DNA from: Polytrichum commune
Lineage: Eukaryota; Streptophyta; Polytrichopsida; Polytrichales; Polytrichaceae
Reading direction: 5' to 3'
Assembly: GCA_950295325.1 (NCBI GenBank)
Contig: OX485804.1
Coordinates: 47,542,429 to 47,606,428, forward strand
DNA: 64,000 bases
The stretch's first letter is position 1; the number at the start of each line of letters is the position of its first letter. The notes under the pieces are model-generated. The model did not search any database. It saw only the letters and a program-made list of their open reading frames with translations, and was not told the origin of the DNA. Both the position numbers and the translations under genes were made by a program. Below, in pieces: positions 40,171 to 62,703 of the stretch.

Positions 40171-41961
40171 ATTTGTATGATGGTGCAGTTGTGACAGGGG
40201 AGTCCTTTGAATTATTGGTGCAAAGCCTAAAGACCAATTTCAAAGGTAATCTCCCCAATTCAAAATTCTTCACAAGGTGTTTGCATGTTGAATCCAATTA
40301 CCATTAAGCTTGATCTAAATATGTGGTTTGTATTTTTGAGTGTAGGTGATGCCCATAAACTAATTGATGAGCTTACATCTCACCTCGGGGAGGTGACTAT
40401 TGGATTTTCATAAAACCATGTGAGATAAAAATAAAATAAGGTCAATTTAATTTGTTTAGGGTAAAATTTATAATTTCGTGATCTACAATAGCATTGGATA
40501 CATGTCCCCTACATGATTATATACAATAGGGTGGTGGATAATTCCTCTATTTTAGTAATCGATAAATCCAAAATAAGATCATAGATGTAGGATCCCCCTA
40601 AAAGTGTGTAGTAGGATCAATAGAATAATTTAAGGGTATGATTACTTGGATGAAGAAGTGTGTAGTTTATGTCCAACTTTGAATCAAGTGCATTAGTATG
40701 GAGGGAAATGGCGTGGGATTTTATTGGGGAAAGGAATGTGTTGGCACTCCTTAAGCGCCATTTAGGGTGTAGGCACGCACGACCACGTCGATGGCACAAA
40801 ATTGACCAAGTTTGAGACGAAGAGTAATCAAGCGAACTGGTGGTTTTGGCCAACTTGCATAATGGAATTATTCAATTGTGGCACACTCATCGACCGATTC
40901 GATCAACATGATGGACCTACATGGCGTCCCCTCACAAATTGTAGTCTTTGCTTGTCTCTGGAGGTGAGGTTTGTGGTTTATTATTCTGTTTTGGATATTT
41001 TTTTAGGGCAAGGGGATGTTGCATTTGCAATGGATCAAGTTTTGATGTGGTCACATTAGTTGTCACCACATTCTTGTATTTGACCTCGGCGATTTCATAG
41101 GTTTCAAAGGCTTTTCATCCAGGACAAGATCCCCGCAATAATTATGAAGTTATGAAATTTCTCATCAGTAATGACAACCCCTATTTGTTTCTAGAAGTTA
41201 GGTTGCGGTGTTTGGTAATGTTTGGTAGTGTTTTGGGGCAAGCGTTTGTTGCCTATCGACATTTGGGAATGCTTCAATTTTTGGTGTAGCCACTACAATT
41301 GTCACCACATTTTCATATTTGACCTCGGTATTTTCATAGATGTCGAAGAATTTTGTATTGACCTCAACATTTTCACAAATGTCTATAGTTTCATGTTAAG
41401 CTTCACATTTCTTATTGGCAATAAAAGTGATGATTCGCAATAGAAGTGATGATTTGTTGGAAACAACTGAAGATATGCTTTGCCTCACATAGATGAACAC
41501 CAATATTTTTGGAGGAGATGATTTTGTACATAGTGAAGTACATGCTTCAAGACCATGACAAGGGTGTCAACTGGACATCATTCCATCCCACCTTGCCGTT
41601 GATTGTATCTTGAGCAAATGATCATCAAGTGAGAATGAACGGTACCTACCTTGCTTGAAGCATTTCATGTCAACCCATTGACCAATAGACTGTTTTTTCG
41701 ATTATCTTTGTTGAACCAGGGACCTCAGAGAATGCAATCTTGCTCTGCATGTACTTGGTCCAGAAAGAATTCATCGTGCAGACATGCGGCCCTATAGCCA
41801 CATGAAAGGGCGGTGACTCCATTATTATGGCAAGAGTGTAATAATGTTGGAACACGATATTCAATATTTTGAGAGAGTGGGATCCTCTCAAAATAATATT
41901 GGCCATTTGGACACCTAAAAGTCATGTTAGGCTAATAAATACTAGATTATACTTCAGACGT
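40171..41961. other. AT-rich intergenic DNA with transposon debris
   Basis: No intact gene. Segments near 41700-41880 and 42790-42920 share diverged words (AATGCAAT-TTGCT-TGCATGT; ATAATGGCAAGAGTG), suggesting an old duplicated repeat interrupted by the 41962-42450 element. Confidence 0.35.
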
Positions 41962-42450
41962 GTAGTTTCCATTAAAATGAGAGTATGTTAAGCTGGGAAA
42001 TCGACTCATTTAGGTTGAGTCGACCTAAATGAGGACAATATTTTGTCAATTTTAGGTTGAGTCGACCTAAATGAGGACATTATGTTGTCAATTTAGGTTG
42101 AGTCGACCTAAATGAGGACATTATGTTGTCAATTTAAGTTGAGTCGACCTAAATGAGGACAATATGTTAGTCAATTTAGGTTGAGTCGACCTAAATGAGG
42201 ACAATATTTTGTCAATTTAGGTTGAGTCGATCTAAATGAGGACATTATGTTATCAATTTAGGTTGAGTCGACCTAAATGAGGACAATTATGTTAGTCAAT
42301 TTAGGTTGAGTTGACCTAAATGAGGACAATCTGTTAGTCAATTTAGGTTGAGTCGACCTAAATGAGGACAATATGTTGTCAACTTAGGTTGAGTCGACCT
42401 AAATGAGTCGATTTCCCAGCTTAACATACTCTCATTTTAATGGAAACTAC
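41962..42450. mobile_element. foldback element packed with palindromic tandem repeats
   Basis: Two exactly matching 54-bp inverted ends (41962-42015 and 42397-42450, starting GTAGTTTCCATTAAAATGAG) enclose about ten tandem copies of a 40-43-bp unit. Each unit is itself two adjacent hairpins: ATTTAGGT-7 bases-ACCTAAAT, then GACAA-4 bases-TTGTC. The array is nearly homogeneous (variants such as GTCGATC and GAGTTGACC are single changes). No coding capacity is visible, and no target duplication was found directly outside the arms. A loose copy of the end motif (CTCTCATTTTAATG) recurs about 120 bp downstream. Confidence 0.85.
42016..42396. repeat. tandem array, 40-43 bp unit, about 10 copies
   Basis: The word GAGTCGACCTAAATGAGGACA recurs at intervals of 40-43 bp. 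Length differences come from the TATGTT(A)GTCAA spacer. The array is bounded on both sides by the 54-bp inverted arms. Confidence 0.9.
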
Positions 42451-44178
42451 GGCGGAATTTACGGCGGAAAATCAAATGTTATTTTTTTATTTGTACTCTA
42501 CAGCTTTCCAGTGGTTTTCATTTCATTCTTGGATTGATAGTTTGCTTTATGTACTCTCAATTCACTGGAAAACTCTCATTTTAATGAATATTGTGTTTTG
42601 GAAATAATGTGATCGTGTTGGGCAATTATTATAGGCGACCTAGGAGGTCCTAGCTTATGCTTGATAGAGAATTGGTGGTAGTTTTGAGAGAAAATTGCCT
42701 TAGTAATTCATACATGAATTAAGGTTTCAGATGTTTGGTAGATATTTAGATGACTCTCAGTTTCTGTAAGATGTTTGATTTCGAGGTAATAGTAGTCGGT
42801 GCCATTGTATGACCAACAAAAAATGCAATTTTGCTATGCATGTCCAGATGTGGATGGCGGTTCTTACGAACTCAACCTTATTCCTATAGAATAATGGCAA
42901 GAGTGAGGCGGATCAAGAGTTAAAGCGTGGTTTTCATAGCATGATGTACTTGACAAAAACAAAAAACCATATCGAAACTCCAATGCCTACTTGAGGGCTA
43001 TTTTAGTTAGTTCAGTATTGCTTCTAGGAATTGAGAATTTGTTTTAGCGAGTGGAACATGAAAGGTCTTGTATATATTTCTTAATGATGTTCATTTCTCT
43101 AAATATAAAAATCAAGTTTTCTGGCCATGGATCTATGGGAATGAAAAGTGGCATGTGGTTCATTCTTCATCCATTTTTGTTGTTGCTCTTACTTGTCTTC
43201 CTAGTGGTGTCCAATATACCAACCTTGTATCGAATGTCCTTTAGCTACAACAACCCTTTCTAGATGATCTATGATGCGCTACATCATTTGGCAACCTCAC
43301 CATGATAGACTTGGATGATTGGACTTTGCCTTAAAGGAAGACAAGGTGGAATGGTTGGAGACTTCGAAGGTTGCCCCCCTCATGCCATCTAGTTTTAGAT
43401 ATTCGTTGTCATTGGTGTTAAACCTTTCACAAATTATTAGTCTTATCATGACATAATAGATGATGCTGAACATGTATAATGATGGCATTTTATTGTAAAT
43501 GCTTGTTACAAGGCTTGAATGGGACTATAGTTGAATGCATTTGTGAACATAATCAAAGTGAATGTTTTTAATTTTCTGTATTTGAATGCAACCTTGTTTT
43601 TTTGGAGTAGATAGTTGTGCAAAATTTCATGTCTTGTCACAACTGATTGTATTTTTTTGTTTTGTTCTATTTGCGTTTACAACTTGTCTAGTTCAACTCG
43701 TGTATTTTATTATCTCCATGGTTATTGGTAACCCTTTAACTAGTATCTAAATGATATTAGTTGTGTTTTGACTGGTACTTTGAATGGTTTAGGATTGGTA
43801 TCACCAATTGAAACCAAATGAATGACAATTTGAATAGTATGGAATGTTTGTTGCTCAAATATCTAGTTTAACAATGCTATAGTATTCCGTCCACTATTTG
43901 GTACTTGTACGATTTATTAAAAAAAAAAATTGCCAAAAATTAGCCTCTTTAAACAATTATAGGGTGCTAAAAAATACGTCAAAGTAGATTTTTATCTACA
44001 AATAGGGAGGAAAAGAATATTGAGAGGTGCATAAATATCCCCCCATTAAATACCCCATTATTGCACATGGTTATGAAACATAAGGGGTTGTGATCACCCG
44101 AAGCATCTCGCTTCCCTTCCCATGGAGTCATGGACACGCTTGGAGTGGTTTACCCACAATATTAGGTTAAAGGAGATC
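42451..44178. other. intergenic, no gene seen
   Basis: AT-rich DNA between the foldback element and the CACTA transposon. No conserved coding sequence was recognised. Confidence 0.4.
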
Positions 44179-44181: not shown

Positions 44182-44197
44182 CACTAGAGGAAAACAG
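44182..44197 (+). repeat. CACTA left terminal inverted repeat
   Basis: CACTAGAGGAAAACAG, the exact reverse complement of 59025-59040. Confidence 0.95.
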
Positions 44198-44204
44198 TGT
44201 CCAA

Positions 44205-45200
44205 CGAGACACTGAGAAACGCGGTTTTTAACGCGGTTTAACGCAGTTTAACGCAGACACTTTTTTTGACGCACAAAATCCAAAAATGTCACGGACGTCT
44301 TTTTGCTTTAACGTGCCCTGTTAAAACATGTTAAATGAGTTAACATGTTTTTACGTGCTGCGTTAAAACACGTTATTCAAGTAAGCTTAACTTACTTGGC
44401 ACGTGACGGACTTGCCACGTGAGCATTTCCCGCTTTTGTGCATTCCACGTTGGATCTGACATAGACATTTCCCAATTTTTTAAATTCCACGTCAGATATG
44501 ACGTGGACAAGTCTCCGTCCTTGTGATGGATGCAAAAATTGCTGATGTGGCATGGAAATCTGACGTGGCGTTTAGGTTTTCAATGGCTGGGATTGTGACA
44601 CGTGGCGTGATCCTGGATTTCGCGTATATTTTCGCATCGACTATGTTATTTTGTGTTTACGTAAACGCAATGTGACGTGTTCTGGAAGTGTGTCCTGGAC
44701 GTTAATTTTGACGCTTTTTGACGCTAATAAACAGATGTGTCACCTATTTTAACGCGTTTCGGGAAAGTCTTTAGACATAGGATGATGTTCGCCACGTCAA
44801 CTATTTGACGCATCCAATTGAATTTTGTGTCAAAAGAAACACAATGCAGTGTTTATGTTGACGCTGATAAACAAATGTCTCACATATTTTAACTCGTTTT
44901 GGGAAACGTCCTTAGACGTAGGATGACGTTCGTCACGTCAACAATTTGACGCATCCAATTTGAATTTTGTGTCAAGGGAAACACAATGTAGTGTTCATGT
45001 TGAGGCATAGCCAGCGTCCATTATGACACATACAAACAGTGAAACACTCATAAACATGAACGATGACGTCAACTGATACGCGACATAACATATTTTATAA
45101 CGCCTTTGAAACGTCATGTATAACACATTGTAACACAAAAATGAACGCGTCATAACGTGTATTAACAACGTCAATCACACTTTAACACAACGCCACGGGG
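44205..45200. repeat. left subterminal repeat region of the CACTA element
   Basis: Dense short repeats built on AACGC, TTTAACGC and ACGTCA/GACGT in both orientations. A segment near 44700-44840 (GACGCTAATAAACA to ATTTGACGCATCC) recurs at about 44860-44960 as a diverged direct repeat. These are candidate transposase-binding sites. Confidence 0.7.
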
Positions 45201-46489
45201 GGGTCACACCCCCTTACATTTCATAGCCACGTGCGATAAAAGTTTGCTACCCTATATTACATGCCATAGATAATTTTTAAAATTATGATATTTTTTCTAC
45301 ATACACATAACCATTGGTAATATATTTTGTATATTTTTTTGAAATTTTTAGTCATCTTCATTTTTTGTAGTAATTATTTTAGTTCAATGTTGCGTCATTC
45401 TAGTTAGAAACGGTATGTTTTATTAAAAAAACAAATCATCAAATTTGGTTACAAATTTTTACTATGTAATAGATACCATGTATATCTACTCATGAAAAAA
45501 AAATCATAAACTTTTGAACCATTTTGGTGATGCTTTATGTAAAAAGTAGATTTTGTTTTATCGCATGTGGTGTTCAACTTGACAATGAAGTGCACCCCCC
45601 GTGCACAACGCACATAAACATCGGTAAACACTACATGTCCGTCACATGAAGCTCATTAGTGTGCGCACTACAACATGGAAAATTAGCCAATTGCATTGAA
45701 TATAATGCTCATACAATGTCCTGTCATTCAATAGCATAATGCATAAAGGTTGCCTGTTGATTGTGATAGCGAACACCTTTCTACTAAAATGGCGCGAGAC
45801 TACTTCTTGGAGATGCAGATGATCTTGGGTTTGGGATGCGCGCAAACGCTGCGTAGCGTAAGGGGCTGCTCATGCTGGATTCTTCTTAATCTACACAGCC
45901 CAGATCATCGCGCTAACGGTGAGTTCATAGCAACACATCATCCAATCAAATTAGGGTGAAGAACGCTTTAGTAAGTGAGCTCTAGATCTTACGTACCTTT
46001 TTAACGCACTTAACTGGCCTTGTCGCTCGCTTGGACTGAGCCTTCTTTTCCTTCAATGGGAATTTCAACTTCTTTGTCCCCGCTCGTGTTGTTGCCCTTC
46101 CATGCTCTAGAATTCCTGGAGGTGTTTCATCACCAGCCCCCACTGCCGTTGCTGCCACTTCGACTTCGGCACGCCTTAAGTTGCTCGCGGGCCACCAAAT
46201 GAAATGACCCATGGCCTACTTCATTGTGAGGATGTCTTCATCCTCTATTGGGCACTGAAGGTCGTGGTCGTCTTTCAAGCTTGTCATCACTTGCACGGAG
46301 AACTCGTCCTCTTCAATGGTTTTGCAGTGGACCGACTCTCCAGGCATTCCGTGCAGCATTCCTAACCCAACAACTTCGTGCAGGGGTTGTCATGAGCGGC
46401 ACTGAGCAACTGCACCGCCACTCCTTTCGCAAATCCACCCTGCGATACCAACAATGTATCGCAGTTACGTTATTTACTTATGTTCTGTA

Positions 46490-46770
46490 ACGTCACTTGA
46501 AACATGTGCTATGTCATTCGAGTCGGAAATTTGTGTCATTCGAGACGCAATTTTACATCATTGGAAACGCAATTTTATGTCATTTGAGACGCAATAGTAC
46601 GTCACCAGAAACGCAGTTTTATGTCATTCGGGACGCGTTTTTATGTAACACGTGACGCAATGTTATGTCATTCAAGACGCGATTTCATGTCATTCGAAAC
46701 ACAGACGTTATTTGGAACGCGATTTCACGTTCCTTGAAACGCAAAGTCCTGTCATCTAAAACACAATGTA
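46490..46770. repeat. array of about 20-22 bp ATGTCATTCGAAACGCAAT-type repeats
   Basis: About a dozen imperfect copies in a row of GTCATT-GAAACGCAATTTTAT. The same motif recurs at 47700-47960, 49880-49985, 54480-54770, 55300-55410, 56965-57085 and 58040-58250. Confidence 0.8.
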
Positions 46771-46807
46771 ACATACTGGAAAATGTGATCTACACAATCA
46801 ACGCCCT

Positions 46808-49712
46808 TTAACAGGCATGATCTGAAACCTTCTTCTCGATGGAGAGCGTTACGATCGTTTCGACAACATGTTGCTCGTCCGCTATTTCGAAGGACGTCTT
46901 TTCCTCCGAAGGTGCTTTGGGTCCGTCACTGCCGTCATGCGAACCTTGAGGAGGTGAACCTACGTCATTGGGAGTGGCGGCCTCCTCCGTCTCCACATCT
47001 TTTTGCGGGGCGCCCTCCTCCGTCCTGGCGTCTTCTTCGGGCCCCTCCCCCTCATCCGGCTCTGTCAGAGTGTCCACGGCCTCCTCCGGCTTTGTGCGTG
47101 CGTCCGGAGCCTCCTCTTGCGCAAGGGGTGCGTCTGCACCATCCCCCATCTCCGTGCAGTCATCCGGGGACTCCTCCGTCTCCGTGGCAGCCTTTCTTGC
47201 CGGGTCGGGGAGCGTGGCTACATCCTCTGTGTCGTCCATGTCAGGCTCCGGAGTGACAACGACTTCTTTTGCTGTCCTACTGCTGCCTCGCTTGGGCTGC
47301 GCTCTCCCTCCAGAGTCCTTGGTGCCCTTCTGTTTGGGCGCCGCTGGCTCGACGAATGGTGGAGGTGCAGCCCTGGCCATGGTGGCGTGTAACTCCGTCA
47401 GCAAGTCCTCCACCTTCTTCAACCTCTTCTCTTGGGCCGCACACAATGCTTCAATCTTATCCATCCTCGCATCATCATCACCTTCTGGCTTCCGCTTCTT
47501 TGTTGTGAGGCGGTATTCCAAGTCCTTTCGCCTCATTGCCTTCACCTCGATCGCAACTTCCGCTTCTGTTGGCCTTCAACCTAATTTTATACTCTGCGCA
47601 TGAGTCCCACCTTGTCATTCTTGGCCAAACAACCACAACTGTGCTCATCTATCCTAGTGCATCACTTGTAACATTACACCGTCCACATATGTTTAAAGTG
47701 ACACAACCATGTTACTTTAAATGTGCTGAAACGCAGTTTTACGTCACTTGAAACGCAGAGTCATGTCACTTGAAACACAAGGTAACGTCATAAGAAACGC
47801 AGTGGTCACGTCGTGAGGAACGCAGAGAAACGTTTCTTGACACACGCGCGTCACTAGAAATGCAATGTCACGTCATAAGAAACGCAGATAAACGTCACTT
47901 GAAACATCAAATTAACGTCATTAGAAACACAATGTCGCGTCATTAAAAACACAACTTTACGTCATCGCGGATAGGTATTGTAAGAATGAACTTACCAGTG
48001 CTGACACTGCCGCTAAGGATTGGTTCCATGTGTTACCAGACTTCGACGGCCTCCCAAGCGAAATGCTCGACATGAGTTGGAACTTCTCTTGCACTGCTAG
48101 GTCTTCCTGCAATTCCACCAACCTCTCCCAATGGCGCTTGGCTATGTCGGCTGGCCTCGCGGCTCCCTCCTTGATGAGCTTATTGATTTGGTACTTCAGC
48201 CGCGTCACGCACCTCGACATCCTTTTGTTGAACCACCTCTCACTGAGTTCAGTGGTTTCACCATAGAATTCGAACTCCGTCCGCACTCGTTCAATCAGCG
48301 CCTTCTTTGCCGCCTTCTGTTGTCCATGCCAACCGGGCCGCACTGTTGGATCCAACTCCCGTGCAAACTTCTGCAGTTCCCTAAAAACCACTGGCTCGTG
48401 GGATCCGACCGACACGCCATGACGATCCAGTTTGATGCGCTGCGGGTCCTTCGGAGAGAGATCATCTTCCTCCTCGTATCCTTCCATGTCTTCTTCCTCC
48501 TCCATATCTTCATCATCGAATTCATCGTCATCGGCATCCTCAGCCTCCTTGGAAGATGACGACAAGCGTTGCGGTGTGTGGGAGGCAGATCCCGAGCTAC
48601 GAATGGCCGTCTTTCGCTTTGCAACTGGCGCCCGGGAGCTGGATGAGCGCCCTAGTGGTGTGGAGGTGTCCGTGTTTGCAGGGCCGCGCCATGGCGGATT
48701 AAACATGTCTTCGCTCAACTCCTGCGAGGGTCTCCTCGGTGGTGCAGGTATTCTCTTCAACACCCCTGCAGGTTTCTGGCGACTTGGCCCCGGAGACGCC
48801 CTCCCACTGGACTTGGCCGTGGGCGTAGGTTTCGGAGGGCTTCCTCCCGCCTCTCGATCCATCCACCTTGTCTCCACGCGGCGCTGCTGGTTGCCCATGC
48901 TCCCGGGTGGCTTTCTGCCCTTCCGACCGTCCTCCTCCCAGTCCTCCATTTCGTGCAGCAGCGCCTCTTCTCGACGCAGTGCAGCTCGGACCGCCGTCAC
49001 CAACAAACAGTTCCTTCTAAGCAGCAACTTAGAAGCTCGCGGCCTCCACCCAACGAAAAGCTCCTTGCTCTCCTTGCGTTTCTGTCAGAGTGAAAAGAAA
49101 AGTACGAACCGAAAGCCGTCCACCTAACTGTCCGCGATGACGGCGTAGAACGACATTGGTGCCACGAATCCCTAAAATTCAAGCAGTGAGCCACTATGTT
49201 TAAATTTCAACTTATGAAGCAACCGGCGATTAGGTATTTGTAGTTGGTGAAGACGAAATGACGAAAAAGTTGGTTGCTTCAGGGTTTTTTACCTGAACCT
49301 CTCACTCCGTTGTGCTTGCTCTCCTTGCGGCCCAGCATTCGCTCATCAAAAGCAATAGGTTTAGGGCAGGGGGACTTACGAAAGCTTTGCCGCCTCGACT
49401 AGGCGCCGCTTCCTCCGCTCCATCCGAGTACGAGCAAGCTAGACGCTGGCGCGAGCTTCGCCTCGACTGGAAGTCCAACTCCATATCATCCGATCACCGC
49501 CTTCTCGCACTTGTCTTCACCGCTGGAGCAGCGGAGGACTTGATAGAAGAAACCGCACGCGAAAGAAACAGACCGCTCACGAAGTTTCCTTCAAATCCTG
49601 CCTCCTTCAATCGCAACGCCACCTCCCTACTGTTTGCCGCGACCCTTGCATCACACAGCAGCTCGTAGGGAGGAGTGACAACATCCGCCTTCATATCTGC
49701 ATGGATCCACAT
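46808..49712 (-). CDS. TNP1/Ptta-like second protein of the CACTA element
   Basis: Minus-strand coding blocks at about 49712-49494, 49082-47998 and 47560-46808 are separated by stretches of the 20-bp repeat with plausible splice sites (acceptor CTGACAG before KRKESKELFVGW; donor GTAAGTTC after 47998). The middle block encodes a proline/serine-rich part, an acidic stretch (DDEFDDEDMEEEEDMEGYEE) and then a helical basic region. That region ends AKRHWERLVELQEDL followed by AVQEKFQLMSS, like the plant Ptta/En-Spm transposase domain (PF03004). The last block starts with a coiled coil (MDKIEALCAAQEKRLKKVED) and ends in a long acidic tail. TNP1/TnpA-type proteins bind subterminal repeats and assist excision. 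Exon borders and the start are tentative, and whether 49494-49712 belongs is uncertain. Confidence 0.6.
47700..47960. repeat. 20-bp CACTA repeat array in a predicted intron
   Basis: Repeats of AACGCAGTTTTACGTCACTT and variants, lying between two coding blocks of the minus-strand gene. Confidence 0.7.
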
Positions 49713-52378
49713 GATGAAAGGGCAATCCGGCTGCCATAAGTGATCTCGAGTTCGTGACCCTATAAGCGAGCGCCAGTTAAATCATCCGGCGGTGATAAGG
49801 TAAATGTCCCCTACTTCCGCGGAAATTCAGAACACCACTATATTTAGAAATTACTCCTTAAATGCTAAATAGTGTTTACCAACGTCATGCATAACAATAC
49901 AACGTCACTTGGAACGCGGTGTAACGTCAACTGGAACGCAATATCACGTCAACTGAAAAGCAATTTCTACGTTAACGTAGAAGGCAGCTTCTATTAGTTA
50001 ATAACAAAAAAAATTGCTCCAAGCCACGCTACGCCATGCTGTCGAGAAAAATGTGTACTATCCGGTAAGCACGGGGCTTTTTTTTATGGTAGTGTTTAAA
50101 ATTTTATAGTACCTTTTCCTTCTCCTACACCCTTGTTGTAAATCCCTCTCAATGTTGTCCTACTAAATTTCAGAATGGTATAACTTTCATCTAACTCAAT
50201 CTCTTCAAGTATTAAGTACCTTACTAAAACTATCCACACCAAATTTTAGCACAAGCGAAGCTCATACTAAAAAGTTATGCATGTTTTCCTAATACTATCT
50301 TCCTAGCATGAATGCTGTGGTATAACATCCGGTCACTAAAACTCTAATAACTTCTAACCATTAAGTCCAATCAATCTCAAATTTTGACACATAATAGATA
50401 GATAAGATCAGAAGGTAGTGTCGAATTTTTGTAGCCATAGCTATAGTATTAAAAAAATCTATATTTTTAAACATTGTTATCTTAGTTGCCTTTGTTCCTA
50501 GACATTCTTCACTTCAACCCTTCACAATTTTTTCTCCTCAAAGACTGAAGCTCCCAAATTTTTACCTCAATTTCTATATCTCATAAAAAACATCCTCCCA
50601 AATTTTCATAACAATCGAACACTCCAATCATTCACAATTCACAAATCCTTCATTCCAAACTTATGCTCACTTAATAATAAATGAAACAATATAAATAATA
50701 CACTTAGTGCAACCTAGTCATTCTAAAATTCTCACCCCCTCACCCTCTTGTATAGATGAGCTTTCTAAACACTTTTTCTTCTAAAAATGCTCAAAGTTCC
50801 TTCAACTCTACACAATAACTAACTCCAAATGCTAACGTTTTTCCCCTTAATACACTTCTAACACCCCTTAAATATTTTTCTTCATTGCCCCCTTCGGCCA
50901 ATAGAAAACCATTGGGATAAGGATTTCTAGAACCCCAAGTGGCTAACTAATAGGAGACATTTTAGGTAAAAGATTTTCTAGAACCCTTATCTTGCTTGAA
51001 ATAGGAAAAATTTGGGTTAAAGGTTTCTAGAACCCTTATCCCGCTAGAAATAGGAAAGTTTTGGATTAAAGGCTAATCCGGCAAGCCAATAGGAAAATTC
51101 GGGTTTAAGGCTTCTAGAGACCTTATCCCGCTAACAAATAGGAAACGAAAAGGTTAGGCCTTTTAGAACGCCTAGGTAGTTAGATAACGGTCCGCCGGTA
51201 AATCCTATCTTTTCCAAATCCTACCTACCACATCCATTTACCGAGTCACTCGGTCTTGAACTTAAGACCGGTTCTCAACTAACTTACATCATTATATAAA
51301 TATCAATTTAAAAATAACAATAACATATAAAATGCCTAAGTTCTAACTAGTAGTCGGCCCACATCACGACAACGCCACGCCCCGCCGCTCCTGCTCCAGC
51401 TCCTTCTCCTTCTCCTTCTCCGTCTTTTTTTTCCTTTATTTCTGCTCATTGGAGTTTGGACAAGGGTTATGGGACCGGCCTAGGGTGGGGGGTGGACCGG
51501 GGGCAGTGGAGAAATTATCTGGGGAGGTCGGCCATAGTCTTCAACTTTTGGACATTTTAGAGGAGAATAAAGCTGACAAACTAGATTTACAGCTACAACA
51601 TCATTGATGGTGGAAAATTATATATGACAGTTATCCGTTTGCTGCAACATTCAATTTTGCAAGTTTAGGATCGGCCATAGTCAAAGTGCCAACAAGCAAA
51701 TCTTCGAGGGGCCTGTAATGCTTGGATGCCAATTTCAGAATTACATAGCCATCTTTTCTTTTCTTTTTTTTGCAAGTTTCCCCTACTACTGTGGGTTTCT
51801 TGGTTGAGCCTTATAGGAGAAAGACCAGGAAAGTCTATTGTCCTGCAAACTTTATCAGCTCGGCTAATCTCAAAGACCTGCGGGTTGAATGACGATGCAA
51901 AGACTTGCAAAGATGGGTTCGGATCTGAAGGCCATGGATAATGCTATGCTTTTAGGAAAACCTCTGCTGGGGTTCAAATGCATGTATGCTTCACTTTTCA
52001 TTTTTCAATGAATCACGCTACTTTTCCCCATTCTTCTTCATTGATTTTCTGGTCAAAAGAAGGAACATTCTAGTACAATCCACCCTCTATAAATGTTACA
52101 CCTATAAGTGTTAACTCTCTCTAAATGTACAGAAGAGATGTCGTCATACGTCAGTAGTGACGTTGTTTTGCGTCCTCGGAAACGCGATGTAACATATTGT
52201 AACGTCAATCGTGACGTTATTTTCCGTCATCGGAAACTCAATGTAACATACTGTGACATCTTCTTAAACGCGTTCTGCCATCATTTTAAACGGTGTTTAA
52301 CGTAATCCACACACACGTATGAACATCAGTAAACGTATGAAGGCAAATTCCTAACCTCTCTCTGGCTTGCATGCAGAA
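49713..52378. other. central non-coding region of the CACTA element
   Basis: Lies between the two divergent genes and probably holds both promoters. A TATA-like CTATAAATG is at about 52086, 290 bp before the transposase ATG. The 20-bp repeat is present at 49880-49985 and 52130-52330. A 1.2-kb AT-rich middle part (about 50090-51300) lacks it and may be a later insertion, but I found no termini. Confidence 0.4.
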
Positions 52379-52576
52379 ATGGTGATTTCCAAAAAAAAAC
52401 GCAAATGGAGATCGACTGAGGAAATCATTCACCATCATGAACTTCAATTCGCTGCAAGTAGGGATGTCCCTATAACAAGGTGGTCATGCCCATGCATGTA
52501 CTGTCATGGAGGCCGACGTTTGTCTGTGCGTGCAATAACAAGGCATCTCAAATCTTATGGACGCGACCAATTTCTA

Positions 52577-52937
52577 TACCGTAACACCATAGCAGGTTCC
52601 CCACCTGCCGCACAAATATTTAATTTTTTTGAAAAATAAGGTTCGCGTTCTAAAAATAGATTTTTTTGAAATTCGTGTTCTCATTTATTGGATTAAAAAT
52701 CATTCGTGTTTAGGGTGGGAAAGATGTGCAAAAATTTCATCCTAATTGCGTTTTTATCCATTTATGGCGGCCCAACTTGTTTAAACCTAAGTCATTACCC
52801 TAATCTTGATTTTTTGTCTTTTCGTTTTTATCACAGTATAATTTGAGAGTTATTCATTTCTCTTTGCCTGTAATTTTTGTTTTTTTATGTTTTTTTTTGG
52901 AATTATTTATGAACGAACCTGCTATGGTGTTACGGTA
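52577..52937. repeat. 23-bp exact inverted repeat pair in the transposase gene
   Basis: TACCGTAACACCATAGCAGG plus TTC (52577-52599) is mirrored exactly at 52915-52937, separated by 315 bases. The first copy is coding (YRNTIAG) and spans the exon 1 donor site; the second lies at the start of the next coding block. Confidence 0.85.
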
Positions 52938-54670
52938 CCGCTTCATGATTGGTGGGGATCCTCCAGGGGGGTACCCGGAGCATGGAGCATGGTACTACAG
53001 CGACGAGGAATGGACGGTAGGCAATCAACGCTGCGACGATCAGTATTTTGAGAAACTCGTACCTGACGACGCAGACTGTGATCCGTATGGCCACCACGAC
53101 GTCCAAAAACAGTTTGAGGACGCTCTGCGAACCGCAGAAGAGTTACAAGAGATGACGCAAGATTCCGAGAATATGCCGAATGAGGACATCGATGAGACAG
53201 AGTTTGCAGATAGCACAATCGAGGCTTTGGAGTTACTATACTCGCAGGCCTCACATCCAGTGTATCCAGGTAGTTCTGTGAGCCTAATATCAGCAATGGT
53301 TGTATTGATGACATTGTGCACGACGCATGGGGTGAGCAACGCATTTGCAACTGAGCTACTTCACTATCTGTCGGGGGAGCTGCTACCAAAAGGAAACGTC
53401 TTGCCTGCGAAGCATTACACAGCGAAGAGGATGCTGCAGGCACTTGGACTAGCATACAATATTATACATGCGTGTCCGTCAGGATGTGTTTTATTTCGGG
53501 GTGAGCACAAGGACCTCGAATCATGTCCCCAGTGCGGGAAAAGCAGATACCGAGAAGGTACGAAGACAACGTCGATGAAGGTTGTTCGGCACTTCAATTC
53601 CCTCTCACTCCAAGGTTGAGGCGCATGTACAGCTATCCTATAATTGCGAGGCTTCTGAAATGGCATTCGGAGCGAGAGGTGGGCATGAAAGACGATGGGG
53701 AAATCAGGATGGAGACCGTCATCGACAATCCCGCTTGGAAACACATCGGAGTCATAGACCCCACGTTCGAGGCGGAAAAGCGCAATGTGCGAATGGCACT
53801 GTCGCTTGATGGCATGAACCCTTTTTCGGTTCAGAGCACCTCACATTCAACGTGGCCTGTCCTCTTGGTTGTCTACAACCTCCCACCGTGGTTGCTCACA
53901 AAACGGTTTTTCATCGTGATGAGTATTTTAATTTCAGGCAAGGAGTCACCAACAGACAAGAATATAGATTTTTTCATAGCGCCTTTGGTGGAAGAATTGC
54001 AGGAGCTATGGGAAGGCATACCAGCCATAGACGCTTCAGCAGATGGCGCAGATAGGAGATTTACTCTTCGTGGCATCCTTTTATGGACAATTTCGGATTT
54101 TCCTGCTAATGGCTTGATTTCTGGACAACAAACTAAGGGCTACAAAGCTTGCCCCGTATGCGGTCCCAACATTGTTTCTAGAAGCGCCAGGGGCCCCAAA
54201 AAAGACAAAATAGTGTACGTAGGTGCACGCCAATGTCTTCCGGAGGACCATGTGCTCCGTTCAGATCTGCGCTTCAACGGGTTTGAAGATAAAGGAGTTT
54301 CCAATTCGAGGATGAGTGGCGAAGACATTATGCGGTTCGCACAAGAAAGAGACACATACCTTGCCTCAGGAGGAAGGGCGAAGGGTCCACACGATCCTGT
54401 GAGGACGCACGGAGTGAAGAAACTTTCAGTGCTCTTCTCCCTTCCGTATTGGAAGGTGTGTGCCCTCACTTACAGCTAATTCACATGCGTTAACGTCCAC
54501 AAAAGCGTTGAGCGCAAATTGTGTTACCCAACGTCAAAGTGAACGCAGTGTGACATCGAACTTTGTTACCCGGCGTCAAAGGAAACGCAGTGTAACATCG
54601 AACTGTAACGTAATGTCAAATCATGTTAAACCATGTCATTCGAAACGCAGAGTAACGTAAAACTGTGTTA

Positions 54671-54708
54671 ACTACCCTTGTCACTGCGGAATGTCGATAT
54701 GAATGCAG
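54671..54708. repeat. 38-bp exact copy of a transposase exon inside an upstream intron
   Basis: ACTACCCTTGTCACTGCGGA and the following 18 bases are identical to 56370-56407, the first bases of the DUF4218 exon. This copy lies in the intron 54456-54857, surrounded by the 20-bp repeats, in the same orientation. Confidence 0.9.
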
Positions 54709-55464
54709 TGTAACGTAAAACTGAGGTAACCAGCGTCCCAGTAAACGTAAGCGAAAGAACGCTGAACGCTAAGTCATATTCAAGTGACGTTAGTTTTGAC
54801 AGTACTTGGGATATATACAAATGAGGAGTTTCGACCATGGTGTTCAATGTGGTGCAGGACTTGCTCATCAGACATACACTGGACATCATGCATTGCGAGA
54901 AAAACCTTTGTGAAAATATAATAAAGACTTTGTTTGGGGAGACTGATTTTCCACGAGGACGCCTGGACTTCAAAGATATGGGAGTCAGGTCTGACCTATG
55001 GTTGAGACAAACACATGGTACAGACGCCCGGCAATTCATGCCACATGCACCTTATGTTCTCCTTCCGCAAGCGAAGACGGACATGCTTGGCGTAATAGGA
55101 TCAACAAAGGTGCCACAGAATTATGCTGGCGCAATTTACAAAAGGGTTTTTGAAGGAAGACTGAGATTTCTTAAATCCCATGACTTTCACGTCCTCATGC
55201 AACAGGTATTGTAAATTCACGTTTATTTTGCGCCACTTTGCTATCAGAATTATTGAATGTGTGTATGCTATAGACTTACCAGGCGGATGCTCCATTGCGT
55301 CAATGGAAACGTAAGGTTAACGTCAAAGCACGTTTCTTCATGTTAAGTGAAACGTGATAAAACGCATTGTAACGTTACTTGAAACGCAGAGTAACGTCAT
55401 GCGAAACGAGTATGGTACATGAACAAAATATGAATTCCATATTGCTGCAAAATAAGCATAAGGC

Positions 55465-56345
55465 CAGGGTTGTCTATCGCGACGTCATGACGGGGTCGTG
55501 CCGTCATGACGCGTCGTGTCGGGTCGGACCCCTCCGTCACGACACAATAGGCTCCTCGTAGGGTCAAACTAGGGTCAACCTAGTAGGGTGGGTAAAATAC
55601 TTACCTTCTTGCCAAGGTGGCGTCCTATGTGGCAAAAAATGCCGACGTGGATGTGCATATTTCCCTTGGCATGTAAACCATTTTGCCATTGTGTTTACCA
55701 TTTTGTTAAAATCAAAGTAATAAAATATTACTAAGGAGGGTGTAGGTCGGACGGGGGGAACGGGTGGGGAGCGCGGGCGGGCGTGTGGGAACGCGGGGGA
55801 ACATGGGGTCGGACGGGGGGGGGGGGGGGGGACGGGGAGGGAGGACGGGGAACGGGGGGAAGGTAAGTGGGAACGGGGGGGGCGGACGGGGGGGAACGCG
55901 GGGAGCGGGGGATGGGAGCGGGTTTAGGAGGTTTGGATAGGACGGGATGGATGGGAACGGGATTAGGGGAACGGGATTAGGGGAACGGGAGGGAGGACGG
56001 GGGGTCGGACGGGGGGTCGGACGGGAGGGTCGGACGGGAGGGAACGGGTTAGGGAACATGTTAATGGGCTAAGGGAGCGGGGTTAGGGTACGGGGAACGG
56101 GGGCGGACGGGCGTTAGTAATTTTATTCCCCACTTTACCTCTACTTTGTTGACATGTCAGCACACGTGGACATCGTAACTCCTACGTGTCCGCAATGGGG
56201 TAATGTAAATACACAAAAAATTCGGTAAAATTCAAGTCCGGCAGGATAAAGACATCATCCGGCATAATGTCGTGACGGATACGTGTCGTGACGGCACGAC
56301 ATTATGTCGGGATTACCCTCCGTCACGACACAATAAACAACCCTG
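55465..56345. mobile_element. 881-bp non-autonomous hAT element nested in a transposase intron
   Basis: Starts CAGGGTTGTCTAT and ends with the mirrored ACAACCCTG. CATAAGGC stands outside both ends (55457-55464 and 56346-56353), an exact 8-bp target duplication. CAGGG ends with 8-bp duplications are the hAT signature. Subterminal parts repeat CGTCACGACACAATA and CGTCATGACG palindromes. The middle (about 55735-56110) is a G-rich array of GGTCGGACGGGG and GGGAACGG units with no coding content. It lies wholly in the intron 55206-56367, so it need not disturb the protein. Confidence 0.93.
55735..56110. repeat. G-rich GGACGGGG/GGGAACGGG array
   Basis: About 375 bases of imperfect G-rich repeats with runs of up to 14 G, inside the nested hAT element. 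The proline-rich open frame on its minus strand is a by-product of the repeat. Confidence 0.8.
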
Positions 56346-58177
56346 CATAAGGCGCTTGCATTTGCAGATACTACCCTTGTCACTGCGGAATGTCGATATG
56401 AATGCAGATGCCCAGACCTGTATCATGAGGGTTAGCAGGGTATTTAGACGCTTGTGCAATCGCACGGTCAACGCGTCTAAAGAACAAGAGTATGTCGAAG
56501 ACGCATCGGTGACGCTTTGTATGATTGAGCGCGAGTTCCCTCTAGGATCAATGGTCATCATGATGCACCTTCTTGTGCATCTCATGGAGGAGCTCTTCCT
56601 ATGCGGCCCAGTTCAAAGCCGCTAGATGTACCCAATGGAGCGATATATGAAGACCCTTAAGGATTATGTACGTTCGTACGCTAGGCCAGAGGGTTTCATG
56701 GCCGAGGCATATTTTATGGAAGAAACACTTGGATTCTATTCGGAGTATATGGAACGTTACGGCGCTATATCCCGAAGAGTGTGGGATGCAAACGAAGACC
56801 AGGCAATGCACGATGAAATGGTGGAGGGCAAGGGAATAAGGCGAGTGATGTCCCGCACTCTTCGTGACTGGATTCACAACTTCGTAGTCACAAACGTTGC
56901 CACACTTCAGCACTACAGAAGGTGCCAAGTTATGCCCTCATATGCGCACTTGAATTTGTAACGTATAGGTTAACGTCTGTAAACATGGGTTAACGTCATT
57001 GGAAACATGGGTTAACGTGTACGTCACCGAATTCTACGTTAAAATGCGTTAAAATGCGTTAACATGCGTTAAAACGCGTCACGTTGTACACTGTCTCCCT
57101 CTAGTCTTACGTAGAAGCTCTTTGACTTCTGTTCATGATTGCACGCACCACTAATGCTAATTGCACACTCCAGGGCGTACGAGGTGGAGTAGAAGTCGAG
57201 GGCCACACTACGCCACCAGAGAAATCGTGGAAGACCTAGGCGAAGGAGACGGAAGCCCTCTGACATGCCTTCACAGCTAAGGGTTTTGCAACCATTTCCG
57301 GATTGGTTGACAGTAGCGGTCGACACCCACCGTGCGGCTGGCTCAAGGAGCATCGACCAAACCACGTATGATTTGTCCAAGCCTCCCTCGCTGAATGCAA
57401 CTGCTTATCGGTCAATGAAGGCTTATGGCATGCACTTCCGTTGCCGCTCAGTTGAAGCTTCAAGCACCACTATGGACAGTGGAGTGCACGCAACCTTCAC
57501 TGACGATGCAGGGGCAGCGACGGAGGAGTACGTGGGCCATGTTGAAGAAATACTCGAATTAGACTACAGGCGCACGTGCGTCGTAGTTCTTGTTTGTTCA
57601 TGGGTTAAAGGAAGAATAGGAGGTGCTGCAGCAACAATGAAGCGGGATGAACACGGGTTTCTTTCCATGAATTTCGCAGATCACTACAAAGTACCTTTGG
57701 GTCCCCAGTCGTTTGCGTTCCCCATTCACGTACAGCAAGTGTTTTTTGTCGCCGATGAGGGGCCGTGGAAAGTGGTGTGCAAGGTTGAAGTTCGAGGCAG
57801 CCGTGGAGGTCGCGCATTTGCTGAAGAACATGACGATGCAGATGCACAAATCTCCGGCCCGGTTTCATCACGTGCCAATAACATAGACAGGCGTAGAACA
57901 GAACCTTCACAAGTGGAGGACTTCGTTCGCCACGGGTCTTTCGTAGAAGGGCACGTGGAGGAGGCAGTAGCGGCGGATGCTAACGATGAGGAATCGGACC
58001 ACCTCCTCGGCGATTCCTCAGATAGTGAGCAATGATCTGAGGAGTAGCGTTTCAAATGACGTTACATGATGTTTCAAATAACGGAGTTTAACGTGTCTTC
58101 CATTTCTGTGAAGCGTTTTTTATGACATCCATAAACGCAATTCATGATCAAGCAACGTCAACAATGACGCGTTCACG

Positions 58178-58600
58178 TTAGCTATATAATTACGTTTCTT
58201 GAAACACAGTTTAACGCAATTTATGTCACTTTAAACGCGGGCGTCACTATTGACACCCCCTAGGATGTTGACTAGGTCAAACCCGCCACGTCAGCCATAG
58301 CCTCCACGCACATGTGACACGTCAGCTATATGATTACGTTTCTTGAAACACAGTTTAACGCAATTTATGTCACTTTAAACGCGCGCGTCACTATTGACAC
58401 CCCCTAGGATGTTGACCAGGTCAAACCCTAGTCGCCACGTCAACCATAGCCTCCACGCACATGTGACACGTCAACTATGTGATTACGTTTCTTGAAACAT
58501 CGGTTGACGCGTTTTTATGTCACTGGAAACGCGCGCGTCACTATTGACACCCCCTAGGATTCAAACCCTACCTTCCACGTCAGACCTATCCTCCACGAAC
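58178..58600. repeat. three tandem copies of a 144-149 bp unit near the CACTA right end
   Basis: TACGTTTCTTGAAACA recurs at 58191, 58335 and 58484. Each copy is followed by an ACGC-rich stretch, GCGTCACTATTGACACCCCC TAGGAT and CCTCCACG; the third copy is shortened. Adjacent to the subterminal repeats. Confidence 0.85.
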
Positions 58601-59024
58601 CCGTTCCAAGTCAGCAAGGCATTCCACGCAGGATTTGCTAATACGTTTTCAGTAACACATTTAAACGTGGCACATGTCACGATAAACACCCTCTATGTTA
58701 AAATAAACGTGTTGACGTGGGGATCTTACTATATTTAGCCATTTAATAACTACTGTGAGGTAAAAAAACGAGGTGAAAAAGTTACTTTCCACAAAGGACA
58801 CTTATGTTTAAGTTGACGCGATGTTGTTATTTGTAACGCTACACCGTTCTTCCAAAATTCAAATGTGTCATCTCTGACACAGGCTGTTAAAGAAACGTCA
58901 ATAGTGACGCGTGCACGTTAAAACGTTTAACGTGCAGTATGTTTATTTGGATCACATTGCCACACTAATTCCGGATAGTCTGGGTTTACGTTTCGGATGA
59001 CATAGAGAAACACTGGACAAAACT

Positions 59025-59040
59025 CTGTTTTCCTCTAGTG
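59025..59040 (-). repeat. CACTA right terminal inverted repeat
   Basis: CTGTTTTCCTCTAGTG, the exact reverse complement of 44182-44197, followed by the ATG duplication. Confidence 0.95.
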
Positions 59041-60556: not shown

Positions 60557-60886
60557 ATGAGCCCACAAATGCAGCCAGGAGAGATCTGTGCCTGGACATG
60601 GGGGGTTTGGCTACCTCACGACATGGATCGAGAAGTACCTCCTCGGGGGGGGGGGGGATACCGGGTGCGCGGCACCGTGCAGTCCTCAAAGGACACCGAG
60701 CAGTTAGAGACACCACGGACGCTCTTGCCAGGTGATGAGTTTGTAGAGAGGCCTATTTGCGTGAGGAGGTCGGGTGGAAGAGCACCATGGAAGGCTGCAA
60801 ATGGGTGGTGTTCCACATTGCAAGGCTGCAAGCCATGTCTGGGGAGTCCAACCAAGCGGGCGAGGCAGTCGCAGGGACCCGGTACC

Positions 60887-61874
60887 CCATGTCACTGGGG
60901 CGCTCCATGGCCCCAAGCGCAGACCCAATCCGGGCCATGAGAGCGTCCCGGGCCCATCAACGGCCCACAAGCCTCGCGGGCAGCCACCCCTGCCGGGCTG
61001 CGGGCAGGGCAGGTAGGGCCTAGGCAAGGCTCAGGCCTATGGAGGAGGGGGGAGGCAGGCTCTGGGCCAGTGCCCCAGGAAGTTTCTAGGCAGGGTCGGC
61101 AAGATCCTAGTGATTCTAAATCCAACCAGTTAAATGTTGACATCTTCTGGTTTTGCTACATTCATCTGAGATATATTCTATGGAATCCTCTAAAATGATC
61201 AGTTTATTAAAGTCTTGAACTTCAACCGGTTATTTTTCGAACTCAACCGGCTCATCTGCAACTGATCAAAAAATTACTTTAAGTCTTGAACTTCAACCAG
61301 ATATTTCTCGAACTCAACCAGTTCATTGCAACAAACCGGTAAATTTCCTTAAGTCTTGAACTTCAACTGGTTATTTCTGGAACTCAACCGGCTCATCTAC
61401 AACTGATCATAAAATTTCCTTAAGTCTTGAACTTCAACCGGTTATTTCTCGAACTCAACCAATTTATCTGCAACTATAGGTTTGGGCCGTTAAATTTGTT
61501 AAAGTTCAAAACTTCAGAAATTTTACCGGTTAGTTGCAAATGAACCGGTTGAGTTCAAGAAATATCCAGTTGGAGTTCAAGACTTAAGATAATTTACCGA
61601 TCATTTTAGAGGATTCCATAGAATATATCTCATGAATGTAGCAAAACGGAAGATGCCAACATTTAACCAGTTGGATTTAGAATCACTAGGATCCTGACTG
61701 ACCCTGCCCAGAAACTTCCCGGACCCTGGCCAAGAGCATGCCTCCCCCCTCCTCCATAGGCCCAAGCCCCGCCCGCCCTGCCCGCGAGGCTTGTGGGCCG
61801 TTGATGGGCCCAAGGCGCTTCAATGGCCCGGATTGGGTCTGCGCTTGGGGCCATGGAGCGCCCCAGTGACACAG
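60887..61874. mobile_element. 988-bp foldback Mutator-like element with 9-bp target duplication
   Basis: CCCGGTACC stands directly outside both ends (60878-60886 and 61875-61883). The 9-bp size is typical of Mutator-like elements. The arms are long inverted repeats of about 300 bp (left to about 61205, right from about 61580). They share TGTCACTGGGGCGCTCCATG, GCCCCAAGCGCAGACCCAAT, CATCAACGGCCCACAAGCCT, CCTAGTGATTCTAAATCCAA and ATATATTCTATGGAATCCTC in mirror. Outer arms are GC-rich, inner arms AT-rich. The middle is a tandem array. No transposase is present, so the element is non-autonomous. Removing it with one duplication restores continuity of the flanking reductase reading (TRY then LLEAA), which fixes the borders. 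Confidence 0.9.
61206..61600. repeat. about 71-bp tandem repeats in the foldback core
   Basis: Four copies of a unit beginning TTAAGTCTTGAACTTCAACC, with ACTCAACCGG and CTCATCTGCAACTGATCA following, run in one direction. One further copy runs in the opposite direction at about 61500-61600. ACCGGTT-type palindromes recur in each. Confidence 0.8.
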
Positions 61875-62703
61875 CCCGGTACCTGCTGGAGGCCGCGTTT
61901 GGCTCGGTGGCCAACACCGTGAAGAAAGTGGTGGGCCGGTGGCGACAACTTGGATTAACAAGGATGATTGGACGGACACAAACATCTTCACCAAGGACTA
62001 CTTGAGCAGCTTGGGACATGGTCCGGGACCCGCCCATAATCCGCGAGGGGTCCCGGTGGCCACTGTATGTCACAAGGCTGGCACCACACGGTTTTTTACA
62101 ATTGGGTTTTTTATTGTTTTTTTAAAGAACTCAATCATCTGAGGTCCAACAAAATCTGGTTTTATTCAGTTTTATTACAGATAAGTTGAGATTATAGGGC
62201 AAAGGGCAAATACATATGGCGGCAACTGAAATAAAACCATGATTTTCTTCGCGGAACTCGGATTTTTTGCATTGAAACCAAAAACCCAATGCATCAGCCG
62301 GAAAAAGTTGGAATTTTTTCACCCTTGGGATGTCAGGGGTTTATCTTAGGCCCCACGCTTGTGCCATGGGATCGCTACAGCCTCCAAACCCTCAAGGACA
62401 TCGCAGAAGGCAACATGCCAGTGTTGCATGACATGACACTCCACGTGGTGGACGTCTGAGACTGCACGAATGCGCATCGCCATTATGGATGATCCATCAA
62501 CCGACAGCCACCGCCACCTCTCGTTCGGGGCTGTGGGGAAGATGGTTGATCTCGGACTAATTGTCCACGACCAATACAAAGGAGCCAAGGGTTTAAGCCC
62601 CTCCATGTGGGTCATGCCCAACACCATCAAGGGCGCGTTCAAGTACGTCATCTCCGACATCCCAAGCATCCACTCCCGGATCGGTGAGCACTTCACGTCG
62701 TAG

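Follow-up and report, generated by a model that had tools for sequence, protein, structure and literature searches.

A Probable MITE Family with a Palindromic Core of Variable Unit Number in the Moss Polytrichum commune

A Hairpin Array between Inverted Arms

A stretch of 64,000 nucleotides of Polytrichum commune DNA (GCA_950295325.1, contig OX485804.1, positions 47,542,429 to 47,606,428; hereafter the window, with features given on its forward strand and counted from its first letter) contains a segment in which inverted arms surround an array of small hairpins. What is this segment, where does it end, and how did its array arise? The arms, at 41962-42015 and 42397-42450, match each other as inverted copies in 54 of 54 bases, as a preliminary description of the locus had claimed, and they form the longest exact inverted pair in the window among pairs of at least 20 bp lying within 2 kb. 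A single array lies between the arms and overlaps them (42008-42407); TRF assigns it a period of 41, 9.6 copies, and 92% matches. It divides into ten stem-loops, i.e., nine full units of 41 to 43 bp and one partial unit, in agreement with the earlier count of about ten. The near-identity that had been ascribed to the units amounts to moderate homogeneity, with a mean pairwise identity of 90% among the nine full units in an alignment that scores one shifted linker variant as mismatches. Two kinds of unit stem are present, but describing all units as pairs of abutting hairpins was too strong: the larger stem (ATTTAGGT/ACCTAAAT) is perfect in 6 of the 10 window units, and 3 of 9 have a perfect five-pair GACAA/TTGTC stem.

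Folded as RNA, the core strand reaches −276.8 kcal/mol (z −28.5), and folded as DNA it has a z of −22.3; in both cases, 0 of 100 shuffles were as good. Because the unit is itself nearly palindromic, the optimal RNA fold is a single long imperfect hairpin, which bears out the proposal that the segment could fold as one long stem. Searching Rfam at gathering thresholds gave no matches within the window.

The Arms Lie Inside a Larger Element

The genome searched comprises 407.8 Mb in 64 contigs, about 406 Mb of it in seven contigs of 42 to 78 Mb. The 489-bp core found many copies there (40 of 277 candidates were scored), and a comparison of flanks revealed that the sequence beyond the arms is conserved between copies as well, which led us to the real ends of the element. 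The segment common to the examined copies spans AACACGATATTCA to TGAATATTGTGTT and occupies 41851-42597 in the window, where it measures 747 bp and holds ten stem-loops. Its ends are 13-bp terminal inverted repeats (TIRs) of the sequence AACACRATATTCA, situated at 41851-41863 (left) and 42585-42597 (right) and matching end to end; the likeness between left and right ends extends over 25 bp, with a score that 4 of 500 shuffles reached. A 4-bp target-site duplication (TSD), TTGG, adjoins both TIRs (41847-41850 and 42598-42601). The arms had been taken for the limits of the element, yet the TIRs and TSDs lie 111 bp and 147 bp outside them. This outer inverted repeat became evident only through the comparison of copies: when just the flanks were aligned locally, it was not above chance, 267 of 1,000 control segments scoring as high. 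Before the copies were compared, TA or TTAA within the arms had been candidates for the target duplication; they were dropped in favor of the 4-bp TSDs.

Two further features connect the ends with the core or give them structure. At the left end, 41862-41901 reads as a subterminal hairpin (CAATATTTTGAGAG...CTCTCAAAATAATATTG) and is mostly paired in a fold of 41800-42700. At the right end, 15 bp (42572-42586; inverse CATTAAAATGAGAGT) are repeated inside both arms with 15 of 15 matches, a likeness equaled by 0 of 500 dinucleotide shuffles. No likeness above chance was detected between arm and left end (252 of 500 shuffles as good) or between unit and right end (394 of 500), while the unit gives weak leads in its likeness to the left end (19 of 500) and to the arm (28 of 500). 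The window copy, for which coding capacity was checked, has no ORF of at least 130 aa within 41851-42597.

Copy Number and Mobility

Patterns from the different parts of the element recur genome-wide in consistent proportion: the left 35 bp at 253 places (up to 3 mismatches), the right 35 bp at 257, the arm at 496, i.e., about two per element, and the unit core at 1,663. Matches with 2 to 3 mismatches were accepted, each pattern had 0 matches when reversed as a control, and positions were taken from the first 100 places listed per pattern. Such proportions fit a genome holding about 250 copies of the element, each with two arms and ~6.5 units. In the 80 loci extracted, element length ranges from 362 to 1,409 bp, a few of these loci having a disturbed right end; for 20 of 20 left ends read at least 7 kb downstream (L041-L060), the right end followed within 665 bp. 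No arm or unit was matched in viral contigs or plasmids, nor the unit in GTDB genome contigs, as expected for a plant element.

Evidence of transposition comes from the TSDs and from empty sites. An exact 4-bp duplication flanks 65 of the 74 copies having both termini, as against a mean of 1.7 and a maximum of 7 when left and right flanks were paired at random by permutation; in the remaining nine, the duplication is one base (seven copies) or two bases (two copies) off, and 0 of 74 copies fit a TSD of 5 or 6 bp. Six of the 80 loci were left out of this count, namely L007, L008, L045, and L072 by name, and L044 and L063, whose end match stops short of the last base; the flanks are TAAA/TAAA in L008 (by eye), TCCT/TTCT in L044, and GGGT/GGGT in L063. 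Target sites are rich in A+T and show a weak, symmetric bias toward C at −5 (32 of 74) and G at +5 (29 of 74). Among eight alignments of seven copies with other extracted loci, three reveal paralogous empty sites with one TSD, two of them ungapped at the junction (L021 in L060 and L025 in L051) and one with a single-base gap beside it (L030 in L052); two L066 alignments cross the junction with four- and five-base gaps, and three alignments fail to cross it.

The suspicion that the segment belongs to a mobile element is thus borne out, the core being part of a larger one, and the possibility raised at the outset that arm and unit might occur nowhere else, in fixed copy number, is contradicted by their recurrence and by unit numbers that differ between copies. 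It had also been considered that the structure might be an assembly artifact, which is very unlikely because the same arrangement recurs at many loci whose flanks differ.

The host sequence of L066 is also present in L057 and L044, and by eye its surroundings resemble the inner part of a second, larger foldback in the window, suggesting nested repeats. That second foldback (60887-61874) has inverted arms of 94 bp at 94% plus inner stretches, encloses a 71-bp tandem repeat (61210-61475), and is flanked by an apparent 9-bp direct repeat, CCCGGTACC (60878-60886 and 61875-61883), from which it is possibly Mutator-like. The window also harbors a CACTA-type element of ~14.9 kb (44182-59040), with CACTAGAGGAAAA at 44182, TTTTCCTCTAGTG at 59028, ATG on both sides, ACGTCA/AACGCA-like tandem repeats inside, and a tnp2 transposase frame at 53523-54479 (Pfam Transposase_21), whose named relatives, among 120 listed of 213, are from flowering plants at 40 to 45% identity, which makes a host outside the well-sampled flowering plants likely.

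A Probable Non-Autonomous DNA Transposon Family

Given TIRs, a fixed 4-bp TSD, many short copies, and paralogous empty sites, we interpret 41851-42597 as one member of a family of non-autonomous DNA transposons of the cut-and-paste type (MITEs) whose palindromic core varies in unit number. To this reading, together with the array mechanism proposed below, we assign a probability of about 0.9. Many family members exceed the 500 bp under which most MITEs fall according to passages of one survey (PMC10741241). Judged by descriptions in the literature rather than by comparison with repeat databases, such a family is new; in the titles, abstract openings, and passages of the open literature, searched by words and not by sequence, we found no published description of the element.

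The element would be moved by a putative transposase supplied in trans. A search for an autonomous partner with the exact TIR and another base at position 15 yielded 81 places as against 57 for the reversed control, and no such partner was found among the loci inspected. Two candidates were rejected. A 13-kb convergent TIR pair is without a TSD, and a pair of arms 5.6 kb apart (C2:4076774/4082348) turned out to be a family copy, L085, with a foreign element in its array. The latter (341-5549 of L085, ~5.2 kb) lies inside the hairpin array, ends in CAGCCC...GGGCTG, and has an 8-bp direct repeat, GTCCTCAT, on both sides; the 8-bp duplication suggests a hAT element, and two frames of the insert gave no Pfam match. 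Another convergent TIR pair, L081, is an old 467-bp relative with the TSD TTGT, whose right-arm region looks by eye as if replaced by unlike sequence; it may represent a stage that preceded or followed completion of the family's foldback core.

A Ladder of Unit Numbers

Copies hold between 1 and 23 stem-loops, and none of the 80 measured cores has fewer than one. A set of copies chosen independently of the core, by an exact match of the first 35 bp on C1 and C2, comprised 50 extracted of 55 listed places, of which 49 gave a unit number; decayed left ends are underrepresented in it. These 49 unselected copies have 1 to 14 stem-loops (mode 5, mean 6.49), and the other 30 loci, mostly found through similarity of the core, have 9 to 23. 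Element length accordingly forms a ladder that starts at 373 bp and rises by about 41 bp with each added unit. In a further set of 43 exact left ends, 21 were pairable by position with a listed exact right end, and 18 of these 21 pairs fall within 0.1 unit of 373 + 41.4(n−1).

In the one-unit copies L044 and L084, the core consists of 115 bp, namely arm, 7-nt loop, and arm (54 + 7 + 54), and therefore the array sits at the center of a simple palindrome; in the third one-unit copy, L074, the left arm is damaged and the core measures 104 bp. We infer that the one-unit, 115-bp palindrome would be the basic form, and that slippage or unequal exchange may add and remove units in source elements as well as after insertion.

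Two pairs of copies have near-identical flanks: L078 and L079 on both sides (about 99% alike over the compared stretches) and L076 and L077 on the left side only. Both pairs are probably duplicated chromosome segments, and within each the unit numbers are equal, at five per copy.

Changes of the Array before and Probably after Insertion

Linker types shared by the family tend to follow one order: of the 74 copies with a linker, 39 begin with type B and 41 end with type E. This suggests a single ancestral array that was modified through local duplication and loss. The sequences of single units record such events. We counted 178 private unit sequences, found in one copy only, among 75 copies (the 76 of the divergence tests, from which L007, L015, L017, and L072 are omitted, less L074). 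Fourteen recur within their own copy (in 11 of the 75 copies), and in L027 three successive units recur five places on. The other 164 of the 178 occur once, and therefore most of the expansion may predate insertion.

Unit number n is nearly unrelated to pairwise distance between copies (Mantel r 0.07, p 0.12) and has no trend with divergence (rho 0.06, p 0.69), so the case for drift after insertion is carried by the spread of n. In the 48 of 50 unselected copies that entered the divergence tests, more diverged copies lie farther from the median n (rho 0.36, p 0.011), and the SD of n in successive divergence tertiles is 2.36, 2.81, and 3.89 (one-sided permutation p 0.005). We take this to mean that unit number changes both before and after insertion; for the part after insertion, the evidence is moderate because the spread result is one of two correlations of n with divergence that were tried and because L078 and L079 kept n = 5.

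An alternative with an appreciable, though minor, chance of being correct is that all of the length variation was inherited from varied source elements and has been static since insertion. The single occurrence of most private variants and the unchanged number in L078 and L079 agree with this, as does the finding that three of the four closest pairs (<1% apart) differ by 3 to 5 units, all three involving L003. Against it stand the 14 private variants duplicated within their own copy and the growth of the spread with divergence, both of which may partly reflect old source lineages.

About equally doubtful is an extension of the MITE reading in which the perfect palindrome itself acts as an instability module: hairpins extruded at replication or excision would add and remove units, unit number would thus be reshuffled again and again by transposition and replication, and only sources with perfect arms would keep jumping. 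If so, the ~250 insertions of readable relative age would amount to a natural experiment on hairpin-driven repeat instability in a plant.

Decay of Arms and Stems

The arms of the family consensus are perfect inverses of each other. The comparison of arm differences covers those 62 of 76 copies whose arms reach 45 or more ungapped matches out of 54, which leaves aside copies with indels in an arm. Per 54 positions, the arms differ by a mean of 2.47 within an element and 2.46 between elements, which contradicts the earlier idea of ongoing homogenization of the arms. Deviations occur in one arm (or are unequal) in 153 cases and are shared in 2, where 3.9 shared cases would be expected under independence, and exact arms like those of the window copy are present in 8 of the 62 copies. 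The arms thus decay independently and without continuing homogenization; therefore, their identity goes back to the state of the source when the family spread.

No selection on structure is visible in the unit stems. Of 5,096 base pairs in 637 stem-loops, 177 are changed: 176 on one side and 1 on both sides, which is left unpaired, so that none of the 177 is compensatory. These data speak against upkeep in place and not against a role in source elements, because copies decay mostly after insertion. Divergence is 0.025 and 0.026 for the two arms, 0.020 and 0.022 for the inner ends, and 0.024 and 0.011 for the TIRs. Measured over ends and arms, copies differ from the consensus by a median of 2.0% (0.3 to 5.6%, 76 copies) and the window copy by 1.4%.

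C>T changes reach 8.7% at CG (103 of 1,189) and 8.0% at CHG (84 of 1,051), as compared with 1.6% at CHH (107 of 6,890); the A>G/T>C rate in the copies is 0.6%. Plant transposons are commonly methylated, and an excess of C>T at CG and CHG is the expected pattern. This mode of decay suggests that the copies are methylated and fits their silencing.

Less probable than inheritance of all length variation from source elements is that the unit hairpins are kept by selection, as sites for a transposase or host factor or because they give rise to protective small RNA. One would then understand why every measured core has at least one stem-loop and why n has its mode at 5, why the consensus arms are perfect, and why they repeat 15 bp of the right end; in passages of one report, internal repeats of Galileo, and by suggestion those of Tetris, carry extra transposase sites (PMC4079207). 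The absence of compensatory changes among the 5,096 stem pairs argues against such selection, as do arms that diverge as fast as the inner ends. Since what the two tests chiefly register is neutral decay of inserted copies, selection acting on source elements stays compatible with them.

Two readings that do without the larger element fare far worse. A free minisatellite or satellite seed, independent of transposition, would account for a tandem array with local duplications such as the repeated block in L027, but the 1,663 units are the number expected if ~250 elements hold 6.5 units on average, and all extracted arrays lie inside the element (100 of the 1,663 places were listed), making this reading highly improbable. 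The least probable, a foldback element ending at the 54-bp arms, has in its favor that exact long arms around an array resemble Foldback/Tetris-type elements, and is dismissed for the extracted copies on the grounds that the outer sequence is common to them, that TSDs lie beyond the arms and none adjoins them in the window copy, and that there are about two arm matches for each element end, which leaves few free foldbacks at most.

Significance of the Family

Mobile elements with internal repeats are, to our knowledge, already known. What the present MITE family offers is ~250 insertions that share a palindromic core, differ stepwise in unit number, and carry ends from which relative age can be read. 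The gain and loss of units can therefore be set against time, and this inside a palindrome that should replicate poorly. The family is in this sense a record of how tandem hairpin repeats grow and shrink, it allows a test of the notion that mobile elements are nurseries of tandem repeats, and it adds a plant MITE family with a 4-bp TSD.

Comparison with Known Systems

Several classes disagree with the ends of the element, for which TSD lengths of 4 to 6 bp were compared, as their features are given in passages of PMC10741241. Mutator-like elements need a TSD of 7 to 12 bp, Tc1/mariner (Stowaway) elements the TSD TA, and CACTA elements CACTA/G termini with a 3-bp TSD, whereas the moss element has varied 4-bp TSDs and begins with AACAC. 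For Ginger, with TG...CA termini and a TSD of 4 to 6 bp, the TSD fits but the AA...TT termini of the moss element do not. A Foldback (FB-type) assignment fails on the internal position of the arms. Sola, as described in passages of the same survey, shares 4-bp TSDs and has variable TIRs; it has been reported in a moss and is said to be uncommon in flowering plants (PMC10741241). The moss family agrees with Sola in TSD length, and Sola is the first candidate for its superfamily; the search for an autonomous copy tied no transposase to the family.

Among systems with internal repeats or foldback structure, SVA and LAVA are likewise mobile families with a central VNTR, but these are composite retrotransposons of hominoid primates, as far as passages of their description go (PMC4432496), while the moss element is a plant TIR DNA element with a palindromic unit. 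The SIRC elements of Arabidopsis consist, in the corresponding passages (PMC10342631), of short direct repeats proposed to be MITE-derived, some with palindromes; their repeats are separated by unrelated spacers, whereas the units of the moss element abut and are alike. MuTAnT, a Mutator-like family of Medicago, is similar in being a plant family of 218 mostly short copies with a modular foldback and related empty sites, and differs, according to parts of the same account, in that its TIRs form the foldback, its TSDs are 9 nt, its targets are TA repeats, and a putative autonomous copy is known (PMC4486113).

Closest to the moss element in logic, by analogy with passages of its description (PMC4079207), is Tetris, a foldback transposon of Drosophila virilis with TIR-220 repeats. 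As portrayed there, it too is a non-autonomous TIR element with internal tandem repeats variable in number, part of its repeat region resembles its own end, and no autonomous partner was found for it. In Tetris, however, the repeats lie within the terminal inverted repeats and the TSDs are 8 to 10 bp (PMC4079207), whereas the moss element has its repeats in a separate central palindrome, with TIRs of 13 bp and TSDs of 4 bp, and is present in about 250 copies with 1 to 23 short palindromic units, the count of which indicates no large satellite outside the element.
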